Position numbers and translations under genes: made by a program | Origin: Alphaproteobacteria bacterium | Lineage (GTDB): Bacteria > Pseudomonadota > Alphaproteobacteria > ATCC43930 > CGMCC-115725 | Length of the DNA stretch: 64,000 nucleotides | Reading direction: 5' to 3' | Assembly (NCBI GenBank): GCA_028871455.1 | Contig: JAGWNF010000002.1 | Coordinates: forward strand, 124,001-188,000 | In this document: positions 10,839-51,300 of the stretch, piece by piece | Layout of the letters: every line of letters begins with the position of its first letter | Numbering within the stretch: the first letter of the stretch is position 1 | The notes under the pieces: model-generated | Seen by the model: the letters and a program-made list of their open reading frames with translations, nothing else | The model's database searches: none | Told to the model about the DNA's origin: nothing

Positions 10839-13094
10839 TCAGTGATGCGCGACGTGGCCCGCGTTCTGAATAGCGTTCTGGACGTAGACGTGCACCGCTT
10901 GGCCGCCCGTGGTGGTGGCGGCGTATTCGGTATAGCCGACCATCTGGCTCGCGCTGCCGCCGGCCTGACCGGTCTGCGTGACCAGGTCGCTAATCTTCGT
11001 CCAGGTCGTGCCGGTGCCGGCGAGATCGACCGAGTCGTTAGTGCCATTGCCGTTGATCCACAGCGCCACCGCGCCGCCGGCGTTCTGCACCGCGGTCGGC
11101 TCGTTGTGGGCGAGGTTGAACACGTCGTCGGCGGTGAGGGTGACCGAGTTCGCCGTGCTGGAATGCGCGCCGTCGGTCAGGTCGAAGACCTCGACGTTCT
11201 TGATATTGCTCGTGCTGCTCAGCGTCGAGGTGAAGTCGAGAGTCTGCCCCGTCGAGCTTTCAAGCTGAAGAACGTTGAGGCCCTTGCCGCTGCCGCCGTC
11301 GATATGTGTGTTGCCGTCGATCGAGGCGATGCTGCTCCAGTCGAAGACGTTGGTGCTGTCGGCGGTCGACGAGCCGGTGAGCGTCGCGGCGTCGGAGCTG
11401 TAGGCGTACTCGATCGCATTGGCCTTGCCAACCGAGGACGAGGCGTCGGCGGTTGTACTCGTGCTATCGAAGAGATAGCCGAAATGACCGTTGAAATTGC
11501 TTCCGCCCGTGAGGGGATTGTAGGGATCGTTGAAAGAGCCGGGCGCGGTGTAACCAATGTTGTCCTGTGAGGCGACGGTGGTGCTGGCGCTGCCGGTGTC
11601 GCCGAGGCCGTCGAGCTTCGGATTGATCATGCCGGCATAGGCCTGATGCGTGGTGCCATCGATCGTCGCGTTGATGTTGAGGGTCTCGCCTTCGATGTTG
11701 ACCGACGAGACCGTGGCGCCCGAACCCGAAAGGTATTGCAGGGTCACCAGCGCCGGATCGTTCGGCTGGACGATAGTATCCACGCCGAGGTAGCTGCCTG
11801 ATTCCGGCGTCGCTACAATGGTGCCGTTGGCGTTGACATCCACGAGCTGCTGGAAGGTGTGCGCTGGATCGACGGCGTCGGTGTAGGTGAGCAGCAGCTC
11901 GGTGGTGCCGGCGTGCGCGCTGACGTCAACGGAACCCGCCGCCGACGACACGTTGGCCGCGTAGAAGTCGAACTGGATCTGCTTGATGTCGGCGGGCGTG
12001 GTCCCGTGGCTCTCGAAGCCGTTGCTGGTGGCGACGTCGAACACGTCTTGAAAGCCGGCCTGATAGGTGTGGTACGGCTGGTTGACCGATTGCGACATCA
12101 GGTCAGAGCCGAGCTGCGACAGGGTGTGCTCGCTCGCGGTCGACAGCTGGTAGTCGTAGTTGCCGGCCGCATTGATGGTGAAAGTGCCGAACTGGCCGTT
12201 GAGCGAACCCCCCGGATTGGCGTGCGTACCGAAGGCCGGCGGCGGCGAACCCGGCGTCCAGAAATCCGTGATGAACGCCGCTGGCGACGACGACACCACC
12301 TCGGTGATGTAGTTGCCGATCAGGTCGACCGCACCGCCGCCGAGGGGCGGAATCGGATGGGTGCTGCCGAGGAAATACTGGTGCGTATCGAGATCCGGAA
12401 CGCTGAGATGCTCGCCCGGCGGCGGGGGCGTGGGCGGACCCGGCGGTCCCGGCGGCGAGGGTGGACTGCCGCCGACGCCTTTCACGAACTCGTTGGTGTA
12501 GCCGAAGCCGGTCGGCGGCAGCGGATTGTCCGGAATCAGGCCCGGTCCGAGGCCGCCGATGTGGAAGGGCTGCGTCTCGAAGCCGGTGTTGCCGACGATG
12601 ATCGGCGTCGGGCCGGCGGTCGGATTGATCTCGTTCAGCGCCGGGCCGCCGCACGGGCCCAGCAGCGAAAGATGGAACGCCTCGAGCAGCTGGCTCGAGG
12701 TGATCACCGTGCCGTCGGGCAGCTCGAGCGGCACGGGCTGCGGACCGTAGTAGCCGATGATGTCGTGCAGCGTGATCTGCGCGCCGTCGGGGAAGGTCAG
12801 CGTGATGTCCTGGCCGTGCTCGGTCGCCTTGAGGTCGAGCGGATTGAAATCGAAGGTCAGCGGCTGGTTCGGCACCACCGGAACGACGATGTGCTGGCCG
12901 GGCGCCGGCTCGTGCACAGCGATCGGCGGGCCGACCGGCGGGCCGGCATGCGGCACCGTGGAGCGCGGCGGACAGGCGGTCGGCGGCGGACCGGCCTGCG
13001 GGTTGACGTGCTGGAGTTGCTCGACGCCGCCGGTATGCTTGATCAGGGGCGAATGGGTATGCGCCGCCTGAATCAGATGGTCCATCTCAGCCAC
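10839..13094 (-). CDS. Large secreted Bap-like surface protein
   Basis: A 751-residue protein of low complexity, rich in Gly, Ser, Thr, Asn and Asp and nearly free of Cys. Residues ~75-125 (L-T-F-D-F-N-P-L-D, then D-I-T-L-T-F-P-D-G-A-Q-I-T-L) resemble the prefix domain of type-I-secreted biofilm adhesins. A Pro-rich hinge follows near residue 215-235. The last ~200 residues carry Bap/T1SS-type strands (N-V-E-V-F-D-L-T-D-G, then S-V-T-L-T-A-D-D-V-F-N-L). There is no Sec signal and no PEP-CTERM tail, so type I secretion is the best guess; no transporter genes are adjacent. The GTG at 13094 has GGGAGA upstream. The PEP-CTERM gene lies just behind it on the same strand. Confidence 0.7.
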   Translation of the reverse strand: MAEMDHLIQAAHTHSPLIKHTGGVEQLQHVNPQAGPPPTACPPRSTVPHAGPPVGPPIAVHEPAPGQHIVVPVVPNQPLTFDFNPLDLKATEHGQDITLTFPDGAQITLHDIIGYYGPQPVPLELPDGTVITSSQLLEAFHLSLLGPCGGPALNEINPTAGPTPIIVGNTGFETQPFHIGGLGPGLIPDNPLPPTGFGYTNEFVKGVGGSPPSPPGPPGPPTPPPPGEHLSVPDLDTHQYFLGSTHPIPPLGGGAVDLIGNYITEVVSSSPAAFITDFWTPGSPPPAFGTHANPGGSLNGQFGTFTINAAGNYDYQLSTASEHTLSQLGSDLMSQSVNQPYHTYQAGFQDVFDVATSNGFESHGTTPADIKQIQFDFYAANVSSAAGSVDVSAHAGTTELLLTYTDAVDPAHTFQQLVDVNANGTIVATPESGSYLGVDTIVQPNDPALVTLQYLSGSGATVSSVNIEGETLNINATIDGTTHQAYAGMINPKLDGLGDTGSASTTVASQDNIGYTAPGSFNDPYNPLTGGSNFNGHFGYLFDSTSTTADASSSVGKANAIEYAYSSDAATLTGSSTADSTNVFDWSSIASIDGNTHIDGGSGKGLNVLQLESSTGQTLDFTSTLSSTSNIKNVEVFDLTDGAHSSTANSVTLTADDVFNLAHNEPTAVQNAGGAVALWINGNGTNDSVDLAGTGTTWTKISDLVTQTGQAGGSASQMVGYTEYAATTTGGQAVHVYVQNAIQNAGHVAHH

Positions 13095-13117: not shown

Positions 13118-13125
13118 ATGGTTAA
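13118..13125 (-). promoter_or_regulatory. TTAACCAT octamer (CtrA half-site-like) before the Bap-like gene
   Basis: The plus strand reads ATGGTTAA, so the minus strand has TTAACCAT 24 bases before the GTG of the Bap-like protein. The same octamer occurs twice upstream of the neighbouring PEP-CTERM gene. TTAACCAT is the known half-site of the alphaproteobacterial regulator CtrA; its function here is inferred. Confidence 0.4.
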
Positions 13126-13205
13126 AACCTCAGAAAAAGCTCTCATGCCGGTCGCGATCACTCAAAGGAATTCCCCGCCAAAGCGATACATCCCAGTGTG
13201 ATTCT

Positions 13206-13964
13206 TCACTCCCACCGGATCCAGCGGCCGCGCGACCGCGGCGCCATCCAGCGCCGGCGCGTGGCGATGAGCGCGATCAGGCCGCTGCCGAAGAGGAACA
13301 GCGTGGCGGGCTCGTTCACCGAGGGAATGCACTGGCCCGCGCTGTTGGTGACGCAGACCGATTGCGCCAGGTTGGTGAGCGCGAATTCGGCGGTGAATCC
13401 GGCGGGCAGGCCACCGTCGAAGACGATGTCGCCCAAATTGTTGGTTGTCGAGTTGCCGGAGCCGATGCTGGTGAAATAGACCAGGTTGCCGGGGCCGATG
13501 ATTTTGCCTTCGTTGCCGGTGATCGTATAGGTCACCAGGTTGTGCGGCGCCGTCGCCGTGCTGCCGATGCTGCAATTGCCCGGCGCCAGGTTGGTGAAGC
13601 ACAGGGTCTCGCTGGGCACGATGTTGAAGATCGGCATGCCGGTATAGCCGATCAGCATGAGGTCCTGGATGGCGACGCTGGTGTTGTTGACGACGCCGAT
13701 CAGGACGCCGTTGTTGTTGAAGCCGTTGTTGGTGAGCGTCGAGCCGTTGGTCGGATAGCTGACGCTGACGTTGAAGTTGCCGCCGCTCTGCGTGATCGTC
13801 AGGATCTCGCTGCAGTCGCTGATCGTGCTGCTGACGCCGCTGCCGCTGGTGATCGCGTTGCAGGTCGCGGCCGCGGCCGGATGCGCCACCAGAATGCCGA
13901 CGGCCGGACTCAGCGCGGCGCAGGCGACGAGCGCGAGCACCAAACGGCGGAAAAACGCGGGCAT
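13206..13964 (-). CDS. PEP-CTERM-sorted secreted protein
   Basis: A 252-residue exported protein. It has an N-terminal signal peptide (R-R-L-V-L-A-L-V-A-C-A-A, cleavage near A-A-A-A-T) and a Thr/Asn/Ser-rich beta-type body with a few Cys. The end is a tripartite sorting signal: V-N-E-P-A-T-L, a hydrophobic helix F-L-F-G-S-G-L-I-A-L-I-A, then T-R-R-R. This is the architecture recognised by exosortases, and xrtA is 20 kb away. The motif has Asn in place of the first Pro of P-E-P, and a 14-residue basic tail follows RRR, longer than usual. ATG 13964 has AAGGAGAC upstream and is chosen over the ORF's upstream start. The body function is unknown. Confidence 0.82.
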   Translation of the reverse strand: MPAFFRRLVLALVACAALSPAVGILVAHPAAAATCNAITSGSGVSSTISDCSEILTITQSGGNFNVSVSYPTNGSTLTNNGFNNNGVLIGVVNNTSVAIQDLMLIGYTGMPIFNIVPSETLCFTNLAPGNCSIGSTATAPHNLVTYTITGNEGKIIGPGNLVYFTSIGSGNSTTNNLGDIVFDGGLPAGFTAEFALTNLAQSVCVTNSAGQCIPSVNEPATLFLFGSGLIALIATRRRWMAPRSRGRWIRWE

Positions 13965-14000
13965 GAATGTCTCCTTCGGACCCAGGAGCATTCTGCTCGC

Positions 14001-14029
14001 TTAACCATGTTCGATTTCGGATTAACCAT
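14001..14029 (+). promoter_or_regulatory. Two TTAACCAT sites 21 bases apart upstream of the PEP-CTERM gene
   Basis: TTAACCAT occurs at 14001-14008 and again at 14022-14029, a spacing of two helical turns, 37-65 bases before the PEP-CTERM start. The surrounding ~120 bases are AT-rich, and more TTAA words lie at 14096-14115. TTAACCAT is the CtrA half-site in alphaproteobacteria. This looks like a regulated promoter for the sorted protein. Confidence 0.5.
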
Positions 14030-14131
14030 ATATCACTCCATTTGCGAGAATGCAAATAGAGAAAAAGACTTCGCCAAGAAGACTCTTAATAATAGTTAAA
14101 GTTAATCTTGGTTAATATTTGGCGGATACGC

Positions 14132-14536
14132 TCAGCGCCGCGCGATATCCAGCAGGTAACCGGCAAAATCCGCCGGCTTGAGCTTGATCGCCACGCGCTC
14201 CGCCTCGCCGGCGAGCGCCCGCGCCACCAGGATATGATTCTCGACATGCGCCGGATCGACCTTGAACAGGCCGGCGGTGTCGCGGATGCGCGGGTAGTAG
14301 CGCGGCTCGATCAGCTTCTCGCGGCGGGCGATGCGCTCGATCGCCCGAACCTCGTCGAGGCCGTCGGCGGGCACCGCTTTCACCAGCTGCCAGTCGTCCT
14401 CGCCAGCCCAGCCTTGCGCGACCAGCGCCTTGGCGTCGTCGTCGGTACAGCCGATCTTGTAGACGTGCTTGCTCAGCCCGACATCGGACGCCCATTTGCC
14501 GAGTTTCGCGCTGCGCGCCACGTAGATCGCGCCCAT
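14132..14536 (-). CDS. Conserved hypothetical protein, possible GIY-YIG/T5orf172-like
   Basis: A 134-residue soluble protein starting M-G-A-I-Y-V-A-R-S and continuing V-Y-K-I-G-C-T-D-D-D. The I-Y-V...Y-K-I-G-x-T pattern resembles the start of GIY-YIG or T5orf172-type nuclease folds, and R-A-I-E-R-I-A-R-R-E-K-L-I-E-P-R-Y-Y-P-R could hold the later conserved Arg and Glu. This is a weak resemblance, so no function is assigned. It lies between the PEP-CTERM gene and malate synthase, on their strand, with GGGAGA near the start. Confidence 0.6.
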   Translation of the reverse strand: MGAIYVARSAKLGKWASDVGLSKHVYKIGCTDDDAKALVAQGWAGEDDWQLVKAVPADGLDEVRAIERIARREKLIEPRYYPRIRDTAGLFKVDPAHVENHILVARALAGEAERVAIKLKPADFAGYLLDIARR

Positions 14537-14657: not shown

Positions 14658-16283
14658 TCAGGCGCCTTCGCGAACGAGCTGCTCGTAAGCGGGAAGGGTG
14701 AGCCACTCGGGAAAGCGCGGCGCCTCGATGAGTTCGACGAAGATGCGCGCCGCGTCGCGGTAGCGGCCGCCGTCGTAGGCGGCGTCGCCCACCATGGCCT
14801 TGAACTTGGCGAGTTCCTCGTCGAGGAGCTTGCGGCAGAGCGCCCGGTCGATGACGCGGCCGTCGGCGAGCTTCGCCTTGTGCCGAATCCACTGCCAGAC
14901 CTGGGCGCGGCTGATCTCGGCGGTCGCCGAGTCCTCCATCAAATGGTAGAGCGGCACGCAGCCGGTGCCCCGGAGCCATGCCTCGAGATAGCCGATGCCG
15001 ACGTTGAGATTCTGGCGCAGGCCGGCCTCGGTGATGGTGCCGGTCGGTACGGCGAGCAGGTCGGACGCTTCGACGTGCACGTCCTGGCGTTTGCGCGCGA
15101 TCTGGTTCGCTTCCGGCATCTGCTGATCGAAGATCTCCTTGGCGATGCCGACCAGGCCCGGATGGGCGACCCAGGTGCCATCGTGACCGTCGCTCGCCTC
15201 GCGCAGCTTGTCGGTGCGCACCTTCTCCATCGCCGCAGCGTTGGCGGCGGCGTCGTTGCGGATCGGGATCTGCGCCGCCATGCCGCCCATGGCGTGAACG
15301 TTGCGGCGGTGGCAGATCTGAATCAGCAATTGGCTGTACGCCCGCAGGAAATGCGTCGCCATCGTCACCTGCGCGCGGTCCGGCATGACCGCCTTGGGGT
15401 CCTCGGCGAATTTCTTGATGAAGCTGTAGATGTAGTCCCAGCGGCCGCAATTGAGACCGGACGAATGCTCCTTGAGCTCGTGGAGAATCTCGTCCATTTC
15501 GAACGCGGCGAGGATAGTTTCGATCAGCACGGTCGCCTTGATCGTGCCTTGCGGAATCCCGAGCGCCTGCTGGCTGTAAACGAAGACGTCGTTCCACAGC
15601 TTGGCCTCGAATCGGTTCTCGATCTTGGGCAGGTAGAAATAGGGACCGCTGCCGCGCGCCAGCAGCTCCTTGGCGTTGTGGAAGACGTAGAGGCCGAAAT
15701 CGAAGAAGGCGCCGGCCATCGGCGCGCCGTCGACCAGCACATGCGCCTCGGGCAGATGCCAGCCGCGCGGCCGGACCAGCAGCACTGCGGTCTGCGGGTT
15801 GAGCGCGTAGTGCTTCTTGGTCCGCGGATCGTCGTAGACGATGGTGCGCCGGACCGCGGCGGCAAGGTTGATCTGGCCCTCGACCAGGTTGTTCCAGCTC
15901 GGCGTGTTGGCGTCCTCGAAATCCGCCAGGAAGACGTTGGCACCGGAGTTGAGCGCGTTGATCATCATCTTGCGGTCGGTCGGGCCGGTGATTTCGACCC
16001 GCCGGTCGAGCAGGTCCTTGGGCAGCTTCGCGACGGTCCAGTCAGCGGCGCGGATGGCGCGCGTCTCGGCCGGGAAATCGGGTCGCCAGCCGGCGTCGAG
16101 TTTCGTCTGAATCTCGGCGCGCAGTTGCAGTAGTCGCCGGCGCTCCGCGCCGAAGCGGCGCTCGAGCGAGGCGACGAACGCCAACGCCTCGGGGGTCAGG
16201 ATTTTCTCGTGGTCGGGTTTGAGCTTGGCGCGAATCTCGATTCTTTCGGGCGGCGCGCCGGCAAACATGGTTCGGGTGTCCAT
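14658..16283 (-). CDS. aceB: Malate synthase A
   Basis: A 541-residue enzyme condensing glyoxylate with acetyl-CoA to malate. The length and motifs are those of malate synthase A rather than the larger G isoform: G-P-T-D-R-K-M-M-I-N-A-L-N-S-G-A, F-L-A-D-F-E-D-A-N-T-P-S-W, K-A-T-V-L-I-E-T-I-L-A-A-F-E-M, and near the C-terminus Y-L-E-A-W-L-R-G-T-G-C-V-P. The catalytic Asp is expected in L-M-E-D-S-A-T-A-E-I-S-R. A tandem glycine riboswitch precedes it, so it is probably induced when glycine is high and glyoxylate arises from glycine. No isocitrate lyase gene is nearby, which favours a glycine/glyoxylate role here. Confidence 0.95.
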   Translation of the reverse strand: MDTRTMFAGAPPERIEIRAKLKPDHEKILTPEALAFVASLERRFGAERRRLLQLRAEIQTKLDAGWRPDFPAETRAIRAADWTVAKLPKDLLDRRVEITGPTDRKMMINALNSGANVFLADFEDANTPSWNNLVEGQINLAAAVRRTIVYDDPRTKKHYALNPQTAVLLVRPRGWHLPEAHVLVDGAPMAGAFFDFGLYVFHNAKELLARGSGPYFYLPKIENRFEAKLWNDVFVYSQQALGIPQGTIKATVLIETILAAFEMDEILHELKEHSSGLNCGRWDYIYSFIKKFAEDPKAVMPDRAQVTMATHFLRAYSQLLIQICHRRNVHAMGGMAAQIPIRNDAAANAAAMEKVRTDKLREASDGHDGTWVAHPGLVGIAKEIFDQQMPEANQIARKRQDVHVEASDLLAVPTGTITEAGLRQNLNVGIGYLEAWLRGTGCVPLYHLMEDSATAEISRAQVWQWIRHKAKLADGRVIDRALCRKLLDEELAKFKAMVGDAAYDGGRYRDAARIFVELIEAPRFPEWLTLPAYEQLVREGA

Positions 16284-16334: not shown

Positions 16335-16535
16335 CCCCCTCTGTCGGATGACCTGAAAGATTGGTCGGCGCGCCCGATTATGTCTGCGCCGTTTACTTCA
16401 TCGGTGAGGCGCGAAGCCCGCCGGCCACGCGCCCGCTTTCCAGAGTGCCGCTCCCCGCCAGTCCTTTTGCCTGAGAGTTTCCGGGGCGGTTGCTCCTTCG
16501 GCGCCGGGGGGAAACCCGGTCTCTCCTGGCAGGGC
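16335..16535 (-). ncRNA. Tandem glycine riboswitch upstream of malate synthase
   Basis: On the minus strand the first aptamer (about 16530 down to 16458) shows GGAGAGACC, CCGAAGGAGCAACCGCCC, then GGAAACTCTCAGGCAAAAGGAC (given here in two parts: GGAAACTCTCAG and GCAAAAGGAC), the classic glycine aptamer core. The second (about 16455 to 16337) shows CTCTGGAAAGC, ACCGATGAAGTAAACG, ATCTTTCAGGTCAT and CGACAGAGGGG, the usual type-2 partner. About 52 bases separate the last stem from the ATG at 16283, and a GGCCGTGACGGCC hairpin there may be the expression platform. Glycine-dependent control of malate synthase fits known riboswitch regulons. Confidence 0.92.
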
Positions 16536-16676
16536 GTCAAGTCTTTAGAATCTAGCAGAGAAACGGCCTGAAGGCCAGCTGGCGGCCGGTTGTCGGGCTG
16601 CAGCGCGCGGGCTAGAGTCGGCCACCAGGGATGGCCGTAGCGGTCGCAAAGAACAACTGAATTTCGGGGAGAAACG

Positions 16677-40141: not shown

Positions 40142-41101
40142 ATGCCCGATTCCCGTTCCGCGCTCGCCGTTCGTCGTCGCGCTTCGCCGGCGCCAGTTGC
40201 GCGGCCGCTCGTCTCGGTCGTCATGCCCATGTTTAATGCGGCATTAACCATCGAGCGGGCGATCAACTCGGTCCGGGCGCAGACCTACGCCGACTGGGAG
40301 ATGATCTGCGTCGACGACGCCAGCGCCGACGATACCGTCGAGCGCGTCGCCGCCATCGACGATCCGCGCATCCGCGTCATCCGTCTCGACGGCAACGGCG
40401 GTCCGGCGCGCGCGCGCAACCTCGCCATCGCCGCCGCCAAAGGCGAGCTCGTCGCCTTTCTGGACGCCGACGACGAGTGGCTGCCGGACAAGCTCGCGCG
40501 CCAGGTCGCGCTGCTCGACGCCGACGCCGGTCTCGCGCTGGTCGTGACCGACATGCGCGTCACGACGGTGGACGGCGGCGAGGGCAGCTCGGTCTATGCG
40601 CGGCAGCCGCCGGTGTCCGGCATCGACGCCTGGAAGACTCTGCTCGCATCGTCGTTCATCGCCACGTCGGCGGTGATGACGCGCCGTGCCTTGCTGGACC
40701 GGGTCGGCGGATTCAACCCCGAACTGGTGACCGGCGAGGATCAAGACCTGTTCATCCGCCTCGCGATGATTGGACGCGTGCACGCCATCTCCGACAGCCT
40801 CGCCGTGTACCACTGGATGCCGCGGAGCTACTCCACCGGCCATGCGGCGCGCCAGGCCCGCGACGTGATCGCGATGGTGCGGCAGCACTTGCGGCAACTA
40901 GGCGATCGCTTGTCGCGCGCCGAGCGGCGGACGATTCTCGGCCGCCGGTATGAGCGCCTCGGCGCCAATCTGATGGATTCCGGCGCCCGGTTGCGCGGTG
41001 CATGGCTGATGCTGCGAGCGGCCGCGCTCGGCCGCGCGCCGTTCCGCAATCTGATCGCCGTTCCCCGCCGGTTGCTGCGCGGCGCCGGATCCACGCGATG
41101 A
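40142..41101 (+). CDS. Family 2 glycosyltransferase
   Basis: About 319 residues, GT-A fold: V-S-V-V-M-P-M-F-N-A-A near the start, the D-D-A-S pair, G-P-A-R-A-R-N, then D-A-D-D-E-W as the metal/sugar-nucleotide D-x-D and G-E-D-Q-D-L-F for the acceptor side. It adds one sugar to a lipid-linked oligosaccharide, donor unknown. ATG 40142 is the nearest start to the domain; ATG 40085 is in frame but adds only a basic stretch. Codons 31-36 include a TTA leucine inside a TTAA-N7-TTAAC word. The stop overlaps the next gene by 4 bases (ATGA). Confidence 0.88.
   Translation: MPDSRSALAVRRRASPAPVARPLVSVVMPMFNAALTIERAINSVRAQTYADWEMICVDDASADDTVERVAAIDDPRIRVIRLDGNGGPARARNLAIAAAKGELVAFLDADDEWLPDKLARQVALLDADAGLALVVTDMRVTTVDGGEGSSVYARQPPVSGIDAWKTLLASSFIATSAVMTRRALLDRVGGFNPELVTGEDQDLFIRLAMIGRVHAISDSLAVYHWMPRSYSTGHAARQARDVIAMVRQHLRQLGDRLSRAERRTILGRRYERLGANLMDSGARLRGAWLMLRAAALGRAPFRNLIAVPRRLLRGAGSTR
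40233..40248 (+). promoter_or_regulatory. CtrA-like full site inside the GT2 gene
   Basis: TTAATGCGGCATTAAC fits TTAA-N7-TTAAC exactly, the full CtrA recognition pattern, and continues as TTAACCAT. It falls ~90 bases into the coding region and uses the rare codon TTA. It may be chance or an intragenic site. Confidence 0.35.
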
Positions 41102-44020: not shown

Positions 44021-45099
44021 GCCTCGTCGAGCCGCTTGCCGATGGCGCCGCGGCGGAGCCGCCGCGCCGCATCGCGCCCTTCCGGTTCTTCGGCGAGGCG
44101 ATCGTGCCCGTCGCGGTTTCGGCGGACGAGCCGCCGATGCTGCAGGTCATCGTCGACACCGAGGAGGAATTCGATTGGTCGCGGCCCTTCAGCCGCAAGA
44201 CCACCGGCGTCCGCAATATCGCGCACCAGCTCAAGGCGCAGCCGATCTTCGACCGCTACCGCATCAGGCCGACCTATGTCGTCGATCATCCGGTTGCGAG
44301 CCAGAGCATCGGCTACGGGCCGCTACGCGAGCTCCTCGTCGACGGCCGCTGCGATATCGGCGCGCATCTCCAGCCCTGGGTCAATCCGCCGTTCGTCGAG
44401 GACGTCAATCATCTGTCGTCCTATCCCGGCAACCTGCCGCCCGAGATCGAGCGCGAGAAGCTTGCGGTGCTCACCGACACGATCGAGCGCAATTTCGGGG
44501 TGCGACCGCTCGTCTACCGCGCCGGCCGCTATGGCCTCGGTCCGCGGAGTTTCGACTTGCTCGATCGGCTGGGTTACGAAATCGATGCCAGCGTGCTGCC
44601 GGGCGTTGATCTGACCCGCCGCTTCGGTCCCGATTTCTCGGACTTCGGGCCGCAACCCTTCCGCTTCGGCCGCGACGGGCGGCGGCTCGGCATTCCGCTC
44701 ACCGTTGCCCATGTCGGCGCCCTCGCGGCGCGCGCCCGTGCGCTCTATCCCTGGCTCGACACGCGGCCGGCGGATCACCTGATGCTGAAGGCGGCGGCCT
44801 CGCGGCTGCGCCTCATGGAGCGCATCCAGCTGACGCCGGAGGGCTTCACGCTGGCCGAGCAGCGGCGGCTGGTGCGCGCGTTACTGGCGCGCGGACAGCG
44901 CGTGTTCAATTTGAGCTATCACAGTCCGTCGCTCATGCCCGGCGGCGCGCCCTATGTCCGCGACGCGGAGGACCTGGCGCGGTTCTTCGACCGGCTCGAG
45001 GGCCTGCTGGACTTCTTCGTCAACGACGTGAAGGGCCGCTTCATGACGCCGCTCGAGGTCAAGCGACGCCTGACTGGCGTCGCGCCGCCGGTTAATTGA
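44017..45099 (+). CDS. Polysaccharide deacetylase-family protein (WalW-like)
   Basis: About 360 residues of a NodB-like fold. Q-V-I-V-D-T-E-E-E-F-D-W supplies the catalytic acid pair, R-P-T-Y-V-V-D-H-P-V and G-A-H-L-Q-P-W-V-N-P-P the metal-site His, and V-Y-R-A-G-R-Y-G-L-G the third block. It resembles the WalW-type deacetylases of LPS and EPS loci. It starts at GTG 44017 overlapping the previous stop and converges on prsT with an 8-base overlap. It is the second deacetylase of the locus after the DUF3473 enzyme. Confidence 0.82.
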   Translation: MSLVEPLADGAAAEPPRRIAPFRFFGEAIVPVAVSADEPPMLQVIVDTEEEFDWSRPFSRKTTGVRNIAHQLKAQPIFDRYRIRPTYVVDHPVASQSIGYGPLRELLVDGRCDIGAHLQPWVNPPFVEDVNHLSSYPGNLPPEIEREKLAVLTDTIERNFGVRPLVYRAGRYGLGPRSFDLLDRLGYEIDASVLPGVDLTRRFGPDFSDFGPQPFRFGRDGRRLGIPLTVAHVGALAARARALYPWLDTRPADHLMLKAAASRLRLMERIQLTPEGFTLAEQRRLVRALLARGQRVFNLSYHSPSLMPGGAPYVRDAEDLARFFDRLEGLLDFFVNDVKGRFMTPLEVKRRLTGVAPPVN

Positions 45100-47884
45100 C
45101 GCTGCTGCCGAGGTTTTTCAGCAGGGCACTCGCCTGCTGCTTGCCGTCGAACGGACCGTTGTAACCGACCACGCGCCGGAGCAGGGCGCGCGCTTCGGCG
45201 GTCTTGCCGGCCCGGCTCAGCGCCACGGCGAAGTGATATTGGACGGACGGATCGTCCGGCATGCCGTAGCTCGCCATGCGCAGATACGCCAACGCGTGGG
45301 CGACGTTACCCTCCGACAGCAGGATCCAGCCGTACGTATCGGCGACGGCGGGCGACAGCGGCGACAGCGCGTAGGCGCGGGCCGCGGTCTGGCGCGCGCG
45401 TGGGTCGCCGCGATGCGCGTAGATCCACGCCAGGTTGTTGAGGACGACCACGTCGTCCGGGCTGCGCGCCACGATATGTTCGAGCACGGTCTGGGCGGCG
45501 GGATAGTTCGTCATCGCCATGTAAACGTCGGCAAGCGCGTGCATCGCCCCAAGATCGCTCGGATGGCGTCCGATCCAAGTGCGCAGCAGTTCGATGCCCT
45601 GCGCCGATTGGCCGGCTTTTTGGAGCACCGCCGCGTGCTGGATCACCAGACCCTCCGACGGCGCGATATGCTCGGCTTGCGCCAGCAACGCGAGACCGTC
45701 GTTGATCTTGCCATCCTTGACCAGCACCGAGGCCATCCACTGCGTCGCCAGCGTCGGGTTTTCCGACGTCGGCGCGAGTTTTTTGGCCAGCGCGTAAGCC
45801 GAGTTGCGTCCCGCGACCCGGTACTCGGCGTAAACCAGCTCCTCGCGATAAAGCGCCGATTTCGGCTCGAGCTTGACCGCCACCTGCAGCTGCTTGCGGG
45901 CGCTCGTCCAATCGCCGATGCCGGCAAGCGCGTTCGCATAACGGTCGAAGGCGACGGGGTCGTTGGACTTCGCTTCGGTGGCGCGCCGATAGGTGGCGAC
46001 GGCTCCCTTGCCGTTGCCCATCGCGGTCTGGATGCGACCCATCATGTCGAGCACGGCGAAGTTGTTAGGGAACTGCTGCATCATCGGCCGCATCGTGTCG
46101 ACCGCCTGGTTCCACTGCGACTGCGACGCGTAGAGATTGGCGATCTTGAGATTGGCCGCCGGGTTGGACGGATCGAGCGCATTGGCGCGCTGCAGTTCAC
46201 TGATCGCACCAGCGTAGTCCTTCATCGCGGTCAGCACGTCGGCCAAGGCGAGGTGCGACGTGAGATTGTCGCTGTCGCGGGCGAGCATCGCACGGTAGAC
46301 CGCTACCGCAGCCTCAGGCCGCCCTTCGCCCATATAGACCTGGGCCAGATTGCGGCCGGCGACGGTGAACTCGGGATGCTTGCGGTAGAGTATCGAGAAG
46401 ATCTGCTCGGCGTTCGTCAGGTTGCCCTGGGCGATCCGCACCAGGCCAAGAAGGTTGGCGGCCACGAGATCGTTGGGCCGCGCCTTGATCAGTGCCTCGG
46501 CGTGGCGTTCGGCCTCGGCGATGTGATGCTCGCGCAGATCGGAGAGGACGAGCGCCGGGCCGGCGATCGCGGCACCGCCGCTGTGGTTGAAGATCGATTG
46601 CAGCTGGTCGACGCCGAGATTGGTTTGGCCGGCGGCGATGCGGCCGACGGCCACCTGTGTGCCGAGCCGCGGATTGTCGCCGGCGGTTGCCGAGGCGCGG
46701 TCGAGTGCCTGCGATGCCTTGGTGTTGTCACCAACGGCGAGGTACGCGTCGGCCAACACCGCCCAGGCGGCGCCGTCGTCCGGATGGACGCGGGTGATCG
46801 GCTCAAGCAGCGAGATGGCCTGGTGCGGCTCGTTCTGGCGCAGTGCGATATCGGCCAGCAGCCGGTTGGCGAGCGGATTGTCCGGCACGCGCGCGGTGAA
46901 ATTCTGCAGGTAGCTGGCGGCCTGGGCGTATTGGCCGAGCGAGAACTCCACCGCGCCCGTGAGCAATTGGGCGACCGGCAGGTTCGAAAGCTGCAGGTTC
47001 GCCTTCTGCAGGTTGTCGTTCGCCTGCTTGATGTTGCCGCGGCCGACGTCGATCAGCGCCTGAAGATAAATACCCTCCGGGCTGTTGGGGAATTCCGTAT
47101 GGACCTGCCGGACATCGGCCTCGGCAGCATCGAGTTGGTTCAGCATAATTTCGAGATTGGCGCGACCGAGCAGCGCCACCGCGTTCTGCGGCTCATGCTT
47201 GACCACCTCGTTGTAGCGCGCGAGCGCGCCCGCGTAGTCGCCGCGGAGACGCAGCAGATCGCCTTTGAGCATCAGCGCGCGGCTGTTCGCCGGGTCGATG
47301 GCGAGCGCCGCGTCGACCTCGTGCTCGGCCTCGGCTTCCTTGTTCTCGAACATCAGCAGCCGGGCGGAGCCGAGCTTCGGCCCGACAGCCCCGGGGTCGA
47401 GCCGCTCCGCTTCGGCGAGCAGCGGCGCGGATTGATCGGGCTGATGCAGCCCGAGATAGGCGAGACCACGCGCCAACCGGACCTCGCTTTCGCTTGTCGG
47501 CGGACGATGGCCGGCGGGAATCTCGCGCAGCACCGCATTGAACTTGCCGCCGCGCAGCAGGCTCTCCGCGAGCAGCGGGGCGACCTTGGCCTCGTCGGCG
47601 CCGCGCGCCAGCGCCAGCCGCGCCTCGGCTTCGGCCGCCGGGATGTTGCCGATCTGGAGATAGATTCGAGACAGGCGCAGGTGGACGTCGGCGTTCTGCG
47701 GTTGGTTACGGGCCGCGTTGCGCAGCTCGATCGCCGCGCCGCGCAGGTCGCCGCGCTCGATCATCTGCTGCGCCTGGTCGGTGTATCCGGTCGACGCCAA
47801 AGTGATCCCCGGCGATCCCGCGAGCATGCCGATCGCGAGTGCGAAGGGCAGGGCACGGCCGATGAGGTTCGAACGCTTGTTCAT
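45092..47884 (-). CDS. prsT: PEP-CTERM system TPR-repeat protein PrsT
   Basis: A 930-residue exported protein. The signal peptide (M-N-K-R-S-N-L-I-G-R-A-L-P-F-A-L-A-I-G) is followed by a long array of about 20 tetratricopeptide repeats, each ending in a pattern like A-x-x-L-x-P-x-N/D. It matches TIGR02917, the PrsT TPR protein encoded with PrsK and PrsR. A Cys lipobox is not evident here (G-I-T-L-A-S-T-G), unlike many family members that are lipoproteins. Its likely role is a periplasmic scaffold for EPS or sorted proteins. It lies 28 bases after prsR in the prsR-prsT direction. The frame continues upstream but ATG 47884 is set by the signal peptide. Confidence 0.9.
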   Translation of the reverse strand: MNKRSNLIGRALPFALAIGMLAGSPGITLASTGYTDQAQQMIERGDLRGAAIELRNAARNQPQNADVHLRLSRIYLQIGNIPAAEAEARLALARGADEAKVAPLLAESLLRGGKFNAVLREIPAGHRPPTSESEVRLARGLAYLGLHQPDQSAPLLAEAERLDPGAVGPKLGSARLLMFENKEAEAEHEVDAALAIDPANSRALMLKGDLLRLRGDYAGALARYNEVVKHEPQNAVALLGRANLEIMLNQLDAAEADVRQVHTEFPNSPEGIYLQALIDVGRGNIKQANDNLQKANLQLSNLPVAQLLTGAVEFSLGQYAQAASYLQNFTARVPDNPLANRLLADIALRQNEPHQAISLLEPITRVHPDDGAAWAVLADAYLAVGDNTKASQALDRASATAGDNPRLGTQVAVGRIAAGQTNLGVDQLQSIFNHSGGAAIAGPALVLSDLREHHIAEAERHAEALIKARPNDLVAANLLGLVRIAQGNLTNAEQIFSILYRKHPEFTVAGRNLAQVYMGEGRPEAAVAVYRAMLARDSDNLTSHLALADVLTAMKDYAGAISELQRANALDPSNPAANLKIANLYASQSQWNQAVDTMRPMMQQFPNNFAVLDMMGRIQTAMGNGKGAVATYRRATEAKSNDPVAFDRYANALAGIGDWTSARKQLQVAVKLEPKSALYREELVYAEYRVAGRNSAYALAKKLAPTSENPTLATQWMASVLVKDGKINDGLALLAQAEHIAPSEGLVIQHAAVLQKAGQSAQGIELLRTWIGRHPSDLGAMHALADVYMAMTNYPAAQTVLEHIVARSPDDVVVLNNLAWIYAHRGDPRARQTAARAYALSPLSPAVADTYGWILLSEGNVAHALAYLRMASYGMPDDPSVQYHFAVALSRAGKTAEARALLRRVVGYNGPFDGKQQASALLKNLGSSVN

Positions 47885-47912
47885 GTCACTCTCCACGCGA
47901 TCCAAAGCGCAC

Positions 47913-49274
<1,362 letters not shown>

Positions 49275-49278
49275 GACA

Positions 49279-51300
49279 TTACGCCGCCGAGGGGACGGCT
49301 CCTTCTCGCGCTAGGGGAAGAACGATGCGCATGGTCGTGCCAGCGCCGGGTTGGCTGATGACGTCAAGTTCGCCGCCGGCCGCGCGCACCAGCTCGCGCG
49401 TTTGATAGGCGCCGATGCCGCTGCCGCCCGTTTTGGTCGTTCGGAACGGACGGAACAGCTCGTTGCGGACGAATTCGGGATCCATGCCGGGGCCGTGGTC
49501 GGCGACCTCGATCGCCAGCCGGTCGTCGGCGACCGTGCCGGCGACGCTCACCGCCGCGCCAGGCGGCGACGCCTCGACGGCGTTGCTGACGACGTGGGTC
49601 AAGGCCGAGCGAAGATTCTCGGCCGGCATGGCAACCCGGGCGGCGATTGGCGGCATGCGCGTCTCAATGACGACGGCCGCGCCGGCAAGTGCGCCGGCGA
49701 CCTCGGCGACGATGCGTGCGGCATCCACCGAAGCAGCGCGCTGCGGCTCGGCGGCGGCCGTGGTCCGCGCATGGAGCTGGAGCAACAGCGCATTCATGCG
49801 CGCCGATGCCGTCTCGACGGTGCGAAAGGCGTCGGCGCGGAAGCCCGGATCGTCGCCGTGGCGTTGTGCATTGACCGCGATCAGGCGCAGCTGGCTCGCC
49901 AGTGTTTTCAGATCGTGGCCGAGAAACGCGAATCGCTTGCCGTAATCCTCGAGCCGACGGGCATCGGCGAGCTGCCGCGCCGCGGTTTCCTCGCAGATGT
50001 AGCTTGCCGCCTGGTGACCGACGGCGCGCAGCAGCTCGAAGCTCTCCCAGTTGAGGTCGAGCGGCGCGCGCGGATGGGCGAGCGCGATAAAGCCGATCAT
50101 ATGGCCGCTGTGCACGAGGGGCACGGCAAGCCAAAACTGACCATCGGCGCGCCATGGCGCCGGGTCGACTTCGCCGTCGAAGACCTGGATCCAATGGCCG
50201 CCGCGAAAGCCGGCGACGAACGCACCGCTCAGCGGCTCGATCAACTCAGCCGGCAGTCGCAGATTGAAGAATGCGGCAGGCCGGAAGCCGACATCCTCGT
50301 CGATCAGCCACAGGGCGCCGCGCGGACTATCGACGATATTGGCGACGGCGTGGATGACGCGCTGACGGAGCTCGGCCCCGTCGCCCGGTGCCGACAGGAT
50401 GTCGATGAAGTTCATCCACTCGACGCGGTAATCGTAGCGCAGCGAGAACAGATTACGCGATACCAGGTAGTTGATCCGCGCTTTGATGCCGCCCGACGAC
50501 AGGACCAGCGTCAGGACGAGGGCGCTGCCGAAGAGCGTTACGACCTGGGCCGCCGGGCCCCAGCCGCCGTGCTGTTGCAGAACCGCGCCCAAGCTTGCGA
50601 CGACGAGCAGAAATACGCCGCTCACCACCAGCGTGAAGGCGTGGAAGACGAGGCTGCGCGAGATATGGTGGTCGATACGCCAGTTGCGGTTGCGCGCCAG
50701 CGTCAGCGCCAGGAACGGCGCCGACAGGCAGGTTGCCGCCGATCGTGCGTCGGCGAAGACCGGATTCACGTGGCCCGTGAGCAGCGCGGTCGAATAGAGG
50801 AACAGGCCATAGGCGAAGAAGCCGCCGATGCCGATGCAGAACGGCACGACGTTCCACAGCCGCTTGGGCTCGATGTTGCGGTAAAGATTCTCGACCAGCA
50901 GCAGGCCCGCGATCGCCAGGCCGGCGCGCGTCACGATTTGCGACCAGACGAGCGCGCCATTGTCGAGATGGACGAGATCGTTGGCCAGCGCCGTGACACC
51001 GGCGAGAACGCCGCCGATCACCGCCAGCCGGCGCATGCCGTGCTTGAGGCTGTCCTCCGCCTGCGGTCGCAGCAGGAATTCGAGCAGCGCCAGCCAGATG
51101 AGCGTTTGGGCCGTCTCGAGCGGCTGAAGCCGGCCGGGCGCCATGCCGAAGGCCGAGCCGAAAGCCCAGAGCGCGGTCGCGGCGGATGCGGCCAGGACGA
51201 AACGGCCCTCGCGCGAAGGCGTGCCGCGCACCAGCGTGAAGAGGAATAGCGCGGCAAAGGCAAGCCCGCAGAGCGCGGCGGTGACGGCGGCGAACGACAT
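49279..51300 (-). CDS. prsK: PEP-CTERM system sensor histidine kinase PrsK
   Basis: A 673-residue membrane kinase. About eight N-terminal helices (residues 1-270) sit before a GAF-like domain (~295-435), then a DHp helix with His462 in F-L-G-H-D-L-K-T-L-A-S-Q and a HATPase_c domain (V-S-N-A-V-E-A-S, D-H-G-P-G-M-D, G-G-S-G-I-G-A-Y). This layout is TIGR02916. ATG 51300 is chosen; the frame also begins at GTG 51315 overlapping the gene before it. It is partnered with PrsR immediately downstream. The stimulus is unknown, probably envelope state or cell attachment. Confidence 0.92.
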   Translation of the reverse strand: MSFAAVTAALCGLAFAALFLFTLVRGTPSREGRFVLAASAATALWAFGSAFGMAPGRLQPLETAQTLIWLALLEFLLRPQAEDSLKHGMRRLAVIGGVLAGVTALANDLVHLDNGALVWSQIVTRAGLAIAGLLLVENLYRNIEPKRLWNVVPFCIGIGGFFAYGLFLYSTALLTGHVNPVFADARSAATCLSAPFLALTLARNRNWRIDHHISRSLVFHAFTLVVSGVFLLVVASLGAVLQQHGGWGPAAQVVTLFGSALVLTLVLSSGGIKARINYLVSRNLFSLRYDYRVEWMNFIDILSAPGDGAELRQRVIHAVANIVDSPRGALWLIDEDVGFRPAAFFNLRLPAELIEPLSGAFVAGFRGGHWIQVFDGEVDPAPWRADGQFWLAVPLVHSGHMIGFIALAHPRAPLDLNWESFELLRAVGHQAASYICEETAARQLADARRLEDYGKRFAFLGHDLKTLASQLRLIAVNAQRHGDDPGFRADAFRTVETASARMNALLLQLHARTTAAAEPQRAASVDAARIVAEVAGALAGAAVVIETRMPPIAARVAMPAENLRSALTHVVSNAVEASPPGAAVSVAGTVADDRLAIEVADHGPGMDPEFVRNELFRPFRTTKTGGSGIGAYQTRELVRAAGGELDVISQPGAGTTMRIVLPLAREGAVPSAA

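Follow-up and report, generated by a model that had tools for sequence, protein, structure and literature searches.

Conserved putative CtrA half-sites upstream of a PEP-CTERM gene and its downstream neighbour in an alphaproteobacterial genome

The exopolysaccharide layer is the presumed destination to which proteins of the PEP-CTERM/exosortase class are sorted, and little is known of how the timing of their production is controlled beyond the sigma-54/PrsR system. The locus described here, part of a window of 64,000 nucleotides from an alphaproteobacterial genome (G000; an assembly of 3.015 Mb in 51 contigs, 96.2% complete), raises the question of whether the response regulator CtrA could exert such control over a PEP-CTERM gene and the gene that follows it. 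In the open-access papers searched we found no link between CtrA and PEP-CTERM proteins or exosortases, the PEP-CTERM matches being off-topic as judged by title and the beginning of the abstract. The first-pass annotation of this DNA had drawn attention to three exact copies of the octamer TTAACCAT upstream of the two genes, two of them 21 bases apart, and all three are present as it described (Table 1). In the orientation of the PEP-CTERM gene, octamers 1 and 2 each read ATGGTTAA; they are spaced by 21 bp and precede the likely start codon (13964) by 36 and 57 nt, while octamer 3 precedes the GTG of the 751-aa gene (13094) by 23 nt. The window as a whole contains four copies, compared with 0.25 expected (sd 0.46), and none of 100 dinucleotide shuffles produced four or more; the fourth copy, at 40244-40251 (+) and not mentioned by the annotation, falls within a glycosyltransferase reading frame and was set aside. 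The three octamers at the locus are real, and not the product of chance.

Table 1. Coordinates of genes, octamers and predicted elements at the locus (positions in the window; G003 and G001 are of the same genus as G000, G010 and G019 of its sister genus)
Feature	Position	Strand	Basis or remark
751-aa protein gene	10839..13094	-	weak VCBS-repeat match
Octamer 3, TTAACCAT	13118..13125	-	same strand as downstream gene
PEP-CTERM protein gene	13206..13964	-	PF07589, 22.1 bits (cut-off 20.7), run on the longer frame 13206-13991
Predicted leader hairpin	13957..14000	-	folding; pairs ribosome-binding site and start codon
Octamer 1, TTAACCAT, putative CtrA half-site	14001..14008	+	exact match; unchanged in G003 and G001, modified in G010 and G019
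Octamer 2, TTAACCAT, putative CtrA half-site	14022..14029	+	exact in G003, G001 and G010, not in G019
Candidate -10 element, TATATG	14027..14032	-	4/6 consensus bases
Candidate -35 element, TTGCAT	14050..14055	-	read at a fixed 17-bp distance; weak
TTAA cluster, two TTAA-N6-TTAA pairs	14086..14115 (14086-14099, 14102-14115)		pattern match
134-aa conserved protein gene, directly upstream of promoter	14132..14536	-	no Pfam or NCBIfam match at E 0.001

The product of the gene behind the octamer pair has the PEP-CTERM C-terminal segment, in which the motif reads NEP. Its start is most likely at 13964, judging from the sequences compared; an ATG at 13991 is an unlikely start, since in G010 and G019 it lies in another frame. 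The 751-aa neighbour had been labelled Bap-like, a description that the sequence barely supports: no Pfam family was matched, and the NCBIfam search returned only TIGR01965 (VCBS repeat) at 19.6 bits (E 7.6e-4), with no stretch passing singly. Relatives of the 134-aa protein encoded on the other side of the promoter were recovered at 42 loci in a wide scan, Azospirillum included, from records mostly labelled Alphaproteobacteria or Rhodospirillales; at 4 of these 42 (L059, L061, L065 and L067), all in genomes already in our comparison, the next called gene is a PEP-CTERM homologue. Further along, a glycine riboswitch (16449-16538, minus strand; 71.1 bits, gathering threshold 32) precedes the gene for malate synthase A (14658-16283).

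The footprint of the locus was drawn from five genomes, namely G000, G003 and G001 of one genus and G010 and G019 of the sister genus. The two other genomes of the genus possessing these genes, G003 and G001, share the 21-bp octamer pair without change, and octamer 3 keeps the same distance from its gene in both. In the sister genus G010 retains one exact octamer and G019 none, octamer 3 is absent from both, and both preserve TTAA cores 22 bp apart. Conservation upstream of orthologues, by which the annotation had proposed that its reading be judged, is accordingly found within the genus and only partly in the sister genus. A fourth genome of the genus, G002, lacks any match to the PEP-CTERM protein, and its corresponding 465-bp gap is free of TTAA. 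Where its congeners carry both genes, G002 has a 44-residue match, 75% identical, to the 751-aa protein (L036, G002:C161); gene loss may have left this fragment behind.

Genome-wide, the octamer is distinguished by its position between genes rather than by its copy number. In number it shows only a mild excess in G000 (36 copies, compared with 23 of the reversed word), and a raw count above that of the reversed control was obtained for 23 of the 41 genomes; within the family this holds for 15 of 25 genomes, and within the genus for all 4. By position, 29 of the 36 copies in G000 are intergenic, as are 34 of 42 in G003 and 20 of 22 in G001, and a gene start lies within 300 nt of 28, 32 and 17 of these copies, respectively; genes were called with a simple codon-usage caller, two versions of which placed 30 and 29 of the 36 copies between genes. 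As a control, all words of equal base composition were located in a 464 kb sample comprising 475 called genes and 10.7% intergenic DNA, where 295 of 1209 proved intergenic and 236 had a gene start no more than 300 nt downstream. With the window excluded, 26 of 32 octamers in G000 are intergenic, which exceeds both this control (binomial p ~2e-11) and the reversed word, at 10 of 23 (Fisher p 0.004); in G003, where 8 of 14 reversed words are intergenic, the corresponding contrast reaches p = 0.08 only. Octamers occur on both strands relative to the genes, a point against the scheme proposed below. The enrichment in promoters that a genome-wide count of the word and its positions had been expected to reveal is therefore present, and the proposal was not refuted by it.

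Conservation of the word extends beyond the locus. Among the 29 intergenic octamers of G000, 17 recur in register before the orthologue in G003 and 14 before that in G001, making 19 with a counterpart in at least one of the two; these counts include the three sites of the window and, for G003, stand at 17 with 480 nt of upstream sequence and at 16 with 400 nt. They represent lower bounds, a missing orthologue having been scored as a miss, and the orthologues were located by means of the motif itself. Other 8-base windows in the same G003 alignments, with the window's locus excluded, showed full conservation in 349 of 2206 cases, and AT-rich ones in 97 of 281; the octamers, at 16 of 29 (three of the 16 being the window's own sites), exceed all windows at p = 1e-6 and AT-rich windows at p = 0.018. 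The excess over AT-rich promoter windows is thus modest. Judged by distance, an orthologous partner exists for 2 or 3 of the 10 intergenic copies of the reversed word.

In published work TTAACCAT is given as the CtrA half-site and TTAA-N7-TTAAC as the full site, with half-sites forming a described class (PMC3692519). A second TTAA was no part of the search pattern that yielded our octamer sites. Across 83 intergenic sites from three related genomes, T, T, A and A/G are nevertheless favoured at positions -11 to -8, and TTAA (with at most one mismatch) stands 11 bp upstream of 7 of the 29 intergenic octamers of G000, the highest value at any upstream offset tested (5 each at 12 and 21, 4 at 17, 0-2 at the rest). 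Its recurrence at -11 is the CtrA geometry TTAA-N7-TTAA. Intergenic TTAA pairs are sparse in the sample, where 3 have a spacing within 45 bp. Full TTAA-N7-TTAA sites are found upstream of ctrA (TTAATTGCCAGTTAA on the strand of the gene), of cckA in G000, G003 and G001, where the octamer lies inside the site, and of a Flp pilin gene in G000 and G003. Two such sites 39 bp apart also precede an enoyl-CoA hydratase-like gene (L053:1502-1555 in G000; L123:1033-1086 in its likely G003 orthologue), which is a strong predicted CtrA target.

The genome also encodes the regulator itself and homologues of its pathway. The CtrA orthologue scores 419.8 bits against NF045991 (cut-off 350) and is 70% identical to Caulobacter CtrA, and SciP scores 118 bits against NF051866 (cut-off 100); homologues of CckA (726.8 bits) and ChpT (131.4 bits) fall below their NCBIfam cut-offs of 1000 and 240, respectively. 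Homologues of chpT, ctrA, an SRP54-type GTPase gene, sciP and cckA are clustered at about 65.5-73.4 kb of one contig (C20; L001, L172 and L170). A GcrA-family protein and two RAMA-domain matches are also encoded in G000, the RAMA domain having been matched in Caulobacter only among the control genomes. Given the placement of the word in promoters, its conservation, the presence of CtrA, SciP and homologues of their pathway, the re-emerging TTAA, and the full sites before ctrA, cckA and the Flp pilin gene, the word is best assigned to CtrA, and the octamers are probably half-sites for this response regulator. The annotation's identification of the word gains support in particular from the orthologue above the NCBIfam cut-off and from the re-emerging geometry. 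The three octamers of the locus are half-sites only, with no canonical full site: no TTAA-N7-TTAA was found at any of them, the partner at -11 being mismatched at 2-3 of its 4 bases in each case.

How such half-sites could act depends on the promoter, whose assignment here is weak. The candidate hexamers fit the consensus at just 3 to 5 of 6 positions, with a 17-bp spacing set by the analyst, and a strict sigma-70 scan of the promoter region reported no promoter, nor was a terminator found. The -10 position adjoining octamer 2 reads TATATG in 4 of 5 genomes and TATATT in the remaining one; at the -35 position, TTGCAT (3/6 of TTGACA) is present in G000, G003 and G001, and TTTACT (4/6) in G010 and G019. 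Octamer 2 overlaps the candidate -10 by three bases, and octamer 1 would lie at about +12 to +20 if the candidate promoter holds. An octamer pair over a core promoter may represent the layout of CtrA-repressed promoters, in which repressing half-sites have been reported to overlap the -10 (PMC6180460). Promoter P1 of ctrA is repressed through a single TTAA half-site at the -10 (PMC11264516), and mutation of a TTAA 52 nt from the start codon of dgcB leads to derepression (PMC7003649). The present locus resembles ctrA P1 of Caulobacter and dgcB of Agrobacterium in having TTAA half-sites over the candidate -10 region or near the start codon, in a genome with a CtrA orthologue; it differs from them in having two octamers exactly 21 bp apart, a PEP-CTERM target, and a -10 that is a candidate only. 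A comparison with the CtrA-activated genes pilA and fliQ of Caulobacter gives a divided picture, in that full TTAA-N7-TTAA sites precede ctrA, cckA and the Flp pilin gene here, whereas the three octamers have no second TTAA at N7 spacing.

From these features we infer a scheme in which binding, promoter, repression, timing and co-regulation of the second gene are all read from sequence. CtrA would bind the 21-bp half-site pair that covers the presumed PEP-CTERM core promoter, with one octamer over the candidate -10 and the other just downstream. Phosphorylated CtrA would then most likely block this promoter, a step to which we assign about an even chance if CtrA binds, its likelihood being lowered by the weak promoter assignment. 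The PEP-CTERM protein, and perhaps also the downstream 751-aa protein, would be produced when phosphorylated CtrA is low, for instance after a swimming cell settles. Taken as a whole, repression through the half-site pair with production at low phosphorylated CtrA is advanced as a tentative reading, one that the annotation had not envisaged.

Other PEP-CTERM genes of the genome bear on this question. PF07589 identified five places above cut-off in G000, of which four are credible; the one on C19 is doubtful as a PEP-CTERM gene, being antisense to a called gene. Three of the four (those of the window, C43 and C12) have an octamer in the upstream intergenic region, 101 nt upstream in C43 and 303-312 nt upstream of the long C12 gene, in a region shared with a divergent L,D-transpeptidase gene; the C12 gene was joined from two loci by frame arithmetic and open-frame length, its middle lying outside the fetched sequence. 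A TTAA-N17-TTAA pair likewise lies upstream of three of the four (window, C10 and C12) and at no further intergenic place in the 464 kb sample, an association noticed post hoc and among few genes. The C12 pair is also present in G003 and G001; both it and the C10 pair are flanked by divergent genes. Outside PEP-CTERM genes, the 21-bp pair appears once among the octamer loci of G000, before a 99-aa gene (L030) not known as PEP-CTERM, and there also in G003 (L145) and G001 (L154).

The established control of such genes was also sought at the locus. Of 167 proteobacterial PEP-CTERM genes, 99 were reported to have a sigma-54 motif upstream (Haft 2006, PMC1569441), so that genes lacking it are unexceptional, and the PEP-CTERM gene pepA of Aquincola is under sigma-54 with PrsK/PrsR control (PMC9850573). 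Like these systems, the gene described here is preceded by an upstream region of its own, and PrsK, PrsR and PrsT (XrtA/PEP-CTERM) are encoded in the same genome, all above NCBIfam cut-offs, at 45092-51300 on the minus strand beside polysaccharide genes. Unlike them, it has CtrA-type half-sites in place of a -24/-12 element in the intergenic DNA: GG-N10-GC is absent from the 167-bp intergenic region and from the sequence before the downstream gene, and two looser matches both lie inside the coding region of the upstream neighbour. The looser pattern is absent before the C10 gene as well.

Several other explanations of the octamers must be weighed. That they mark nothing, the AT-rich promoter DNA of a GC-rich genome simply yielding and retaining such words, is improbable: words of the same composition frequently fall between genes (295 of 1209 in a sample of which 10.7% is intergenic) and AT-rich windows are often conserved, but the placement of the octamer outside the window far exceeds that of its control, TTAA reappears at the CtrA spacing, and six TTAA lie within 115 bp at this locus as against only 62 intergenic ones elsewhere in the 464 kb sample. 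A regulator other than CtrA that reads TTAAC words 21 bp apart at the PEP-CTERM promoters of this lineage is an unlikely reading, to which the occurrence of TTAA-N17-TTAA before three of the four credible PEP-CTERM genes, and nowhere else between genes in the sample, lends some weight, as do the N7 rather than N17 spacing of CtrA full sites, a PEP-CTERM promoter (L220) that has the 21-bp pair without an exact octamer, and the presence of PrsR and PrsK genes in the window itself. It is at odds with the octamer inside the full CtrA site before cckA and with the 21-bp pair before the 99-aa gene and its counterparts; as for PrsR, it acts with sigma-54, and neither gene of the locus has an intergenic GG-N10-GC.

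Were CtrA to bind the half-sites, it might instead activate, with the two TTAA-N6-TTAA pairs (14086-14115) acting, for instance, near a -35 element, which would place the genes in a motile or predivisional programme together with pili. Because the spacing of these two upstream pairs matches the N6 reported for the activated ctrA P2 promoter (PMC11264516), activation merits consideration, and the Flp pilin gene is preceded by a full CtrA site, pilA being CtrA-activated in Caulobacter (PMC11264516). The best-conserved elements of the locus, however, overlap the candidate -10 and not a -35, and the N6 pairs are not intact throughout, two being retained in G003, one each in G001 and G010, and none in G019. 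We regard activation as somewhat unlikely, and repression through the half-site pair as the somewhat likelier of the two.

With regard to timing, the notion that either gene follows a cell-cycle stage or cell type is not supported so far. Loss of CtrA is harmless to growth and viability in two species of Rhodospirillales, and motility has been proposed as its oldest role (PMC8116508); on these grounds a switch between motile and sessile states is, by analogy, at least as likely, and 'CtrA-dependent cell state' is preferable to 'cell-cycle stage'. The conserved CtrA words before both genes suggest that a master developmental regulator, and not the usual switch for surface proteins, may time their expression. 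If true, such a connection would tie the extracellular matrix to a motile/sessile or cell-cycle switch.

A further feature of the PEP-CTERM leader, separate from the octamer finding, is a predicted hairpin that may serve as a translational lock. For a transcript from about 14000, its z values are -3.5, -4.3, -3.7, -1.9 and -2.0 in the five genomes, and 88.8% of hairpin cells are paired, as against 35-46% when the structure is slid. Its 5' arm, GAGCAGAATGCTC (13986-13998), comprises 13 bases that are invariant in all five genomes and could form a small hairpin of its own; owing to this invariance, covariation analysis of 18 pairs detected none in which both partners had changed, and the result was no higher than in shuffles. 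The arm was also considered as a shared PEP-CTERM operator and rejected, as it occurs once in G000 and its other matches are not before a recognised PEP-CTERM gene: six lie outside the orthologous locus (in G007, G015, G021, G029, G049 and G051), three in called genes, one at the start of another gene, and two between genes. A broader proposal would hold that the PEP-CTERM genes of this lineage moved as a group from sigma-54/PrsR to CtrA by way of the 21-bp TTAA(C) pair, its half-sites standing on the core promoter at a spacing of two helical turns, with the hairpin of the present gene as a second lock; we consider this quite unlikely. The same promoter contains one copy of another word, ATTTGCAT (14050-14057, minus strand), 6 of whose 7 copies in the 464 kb sample are intergenic.
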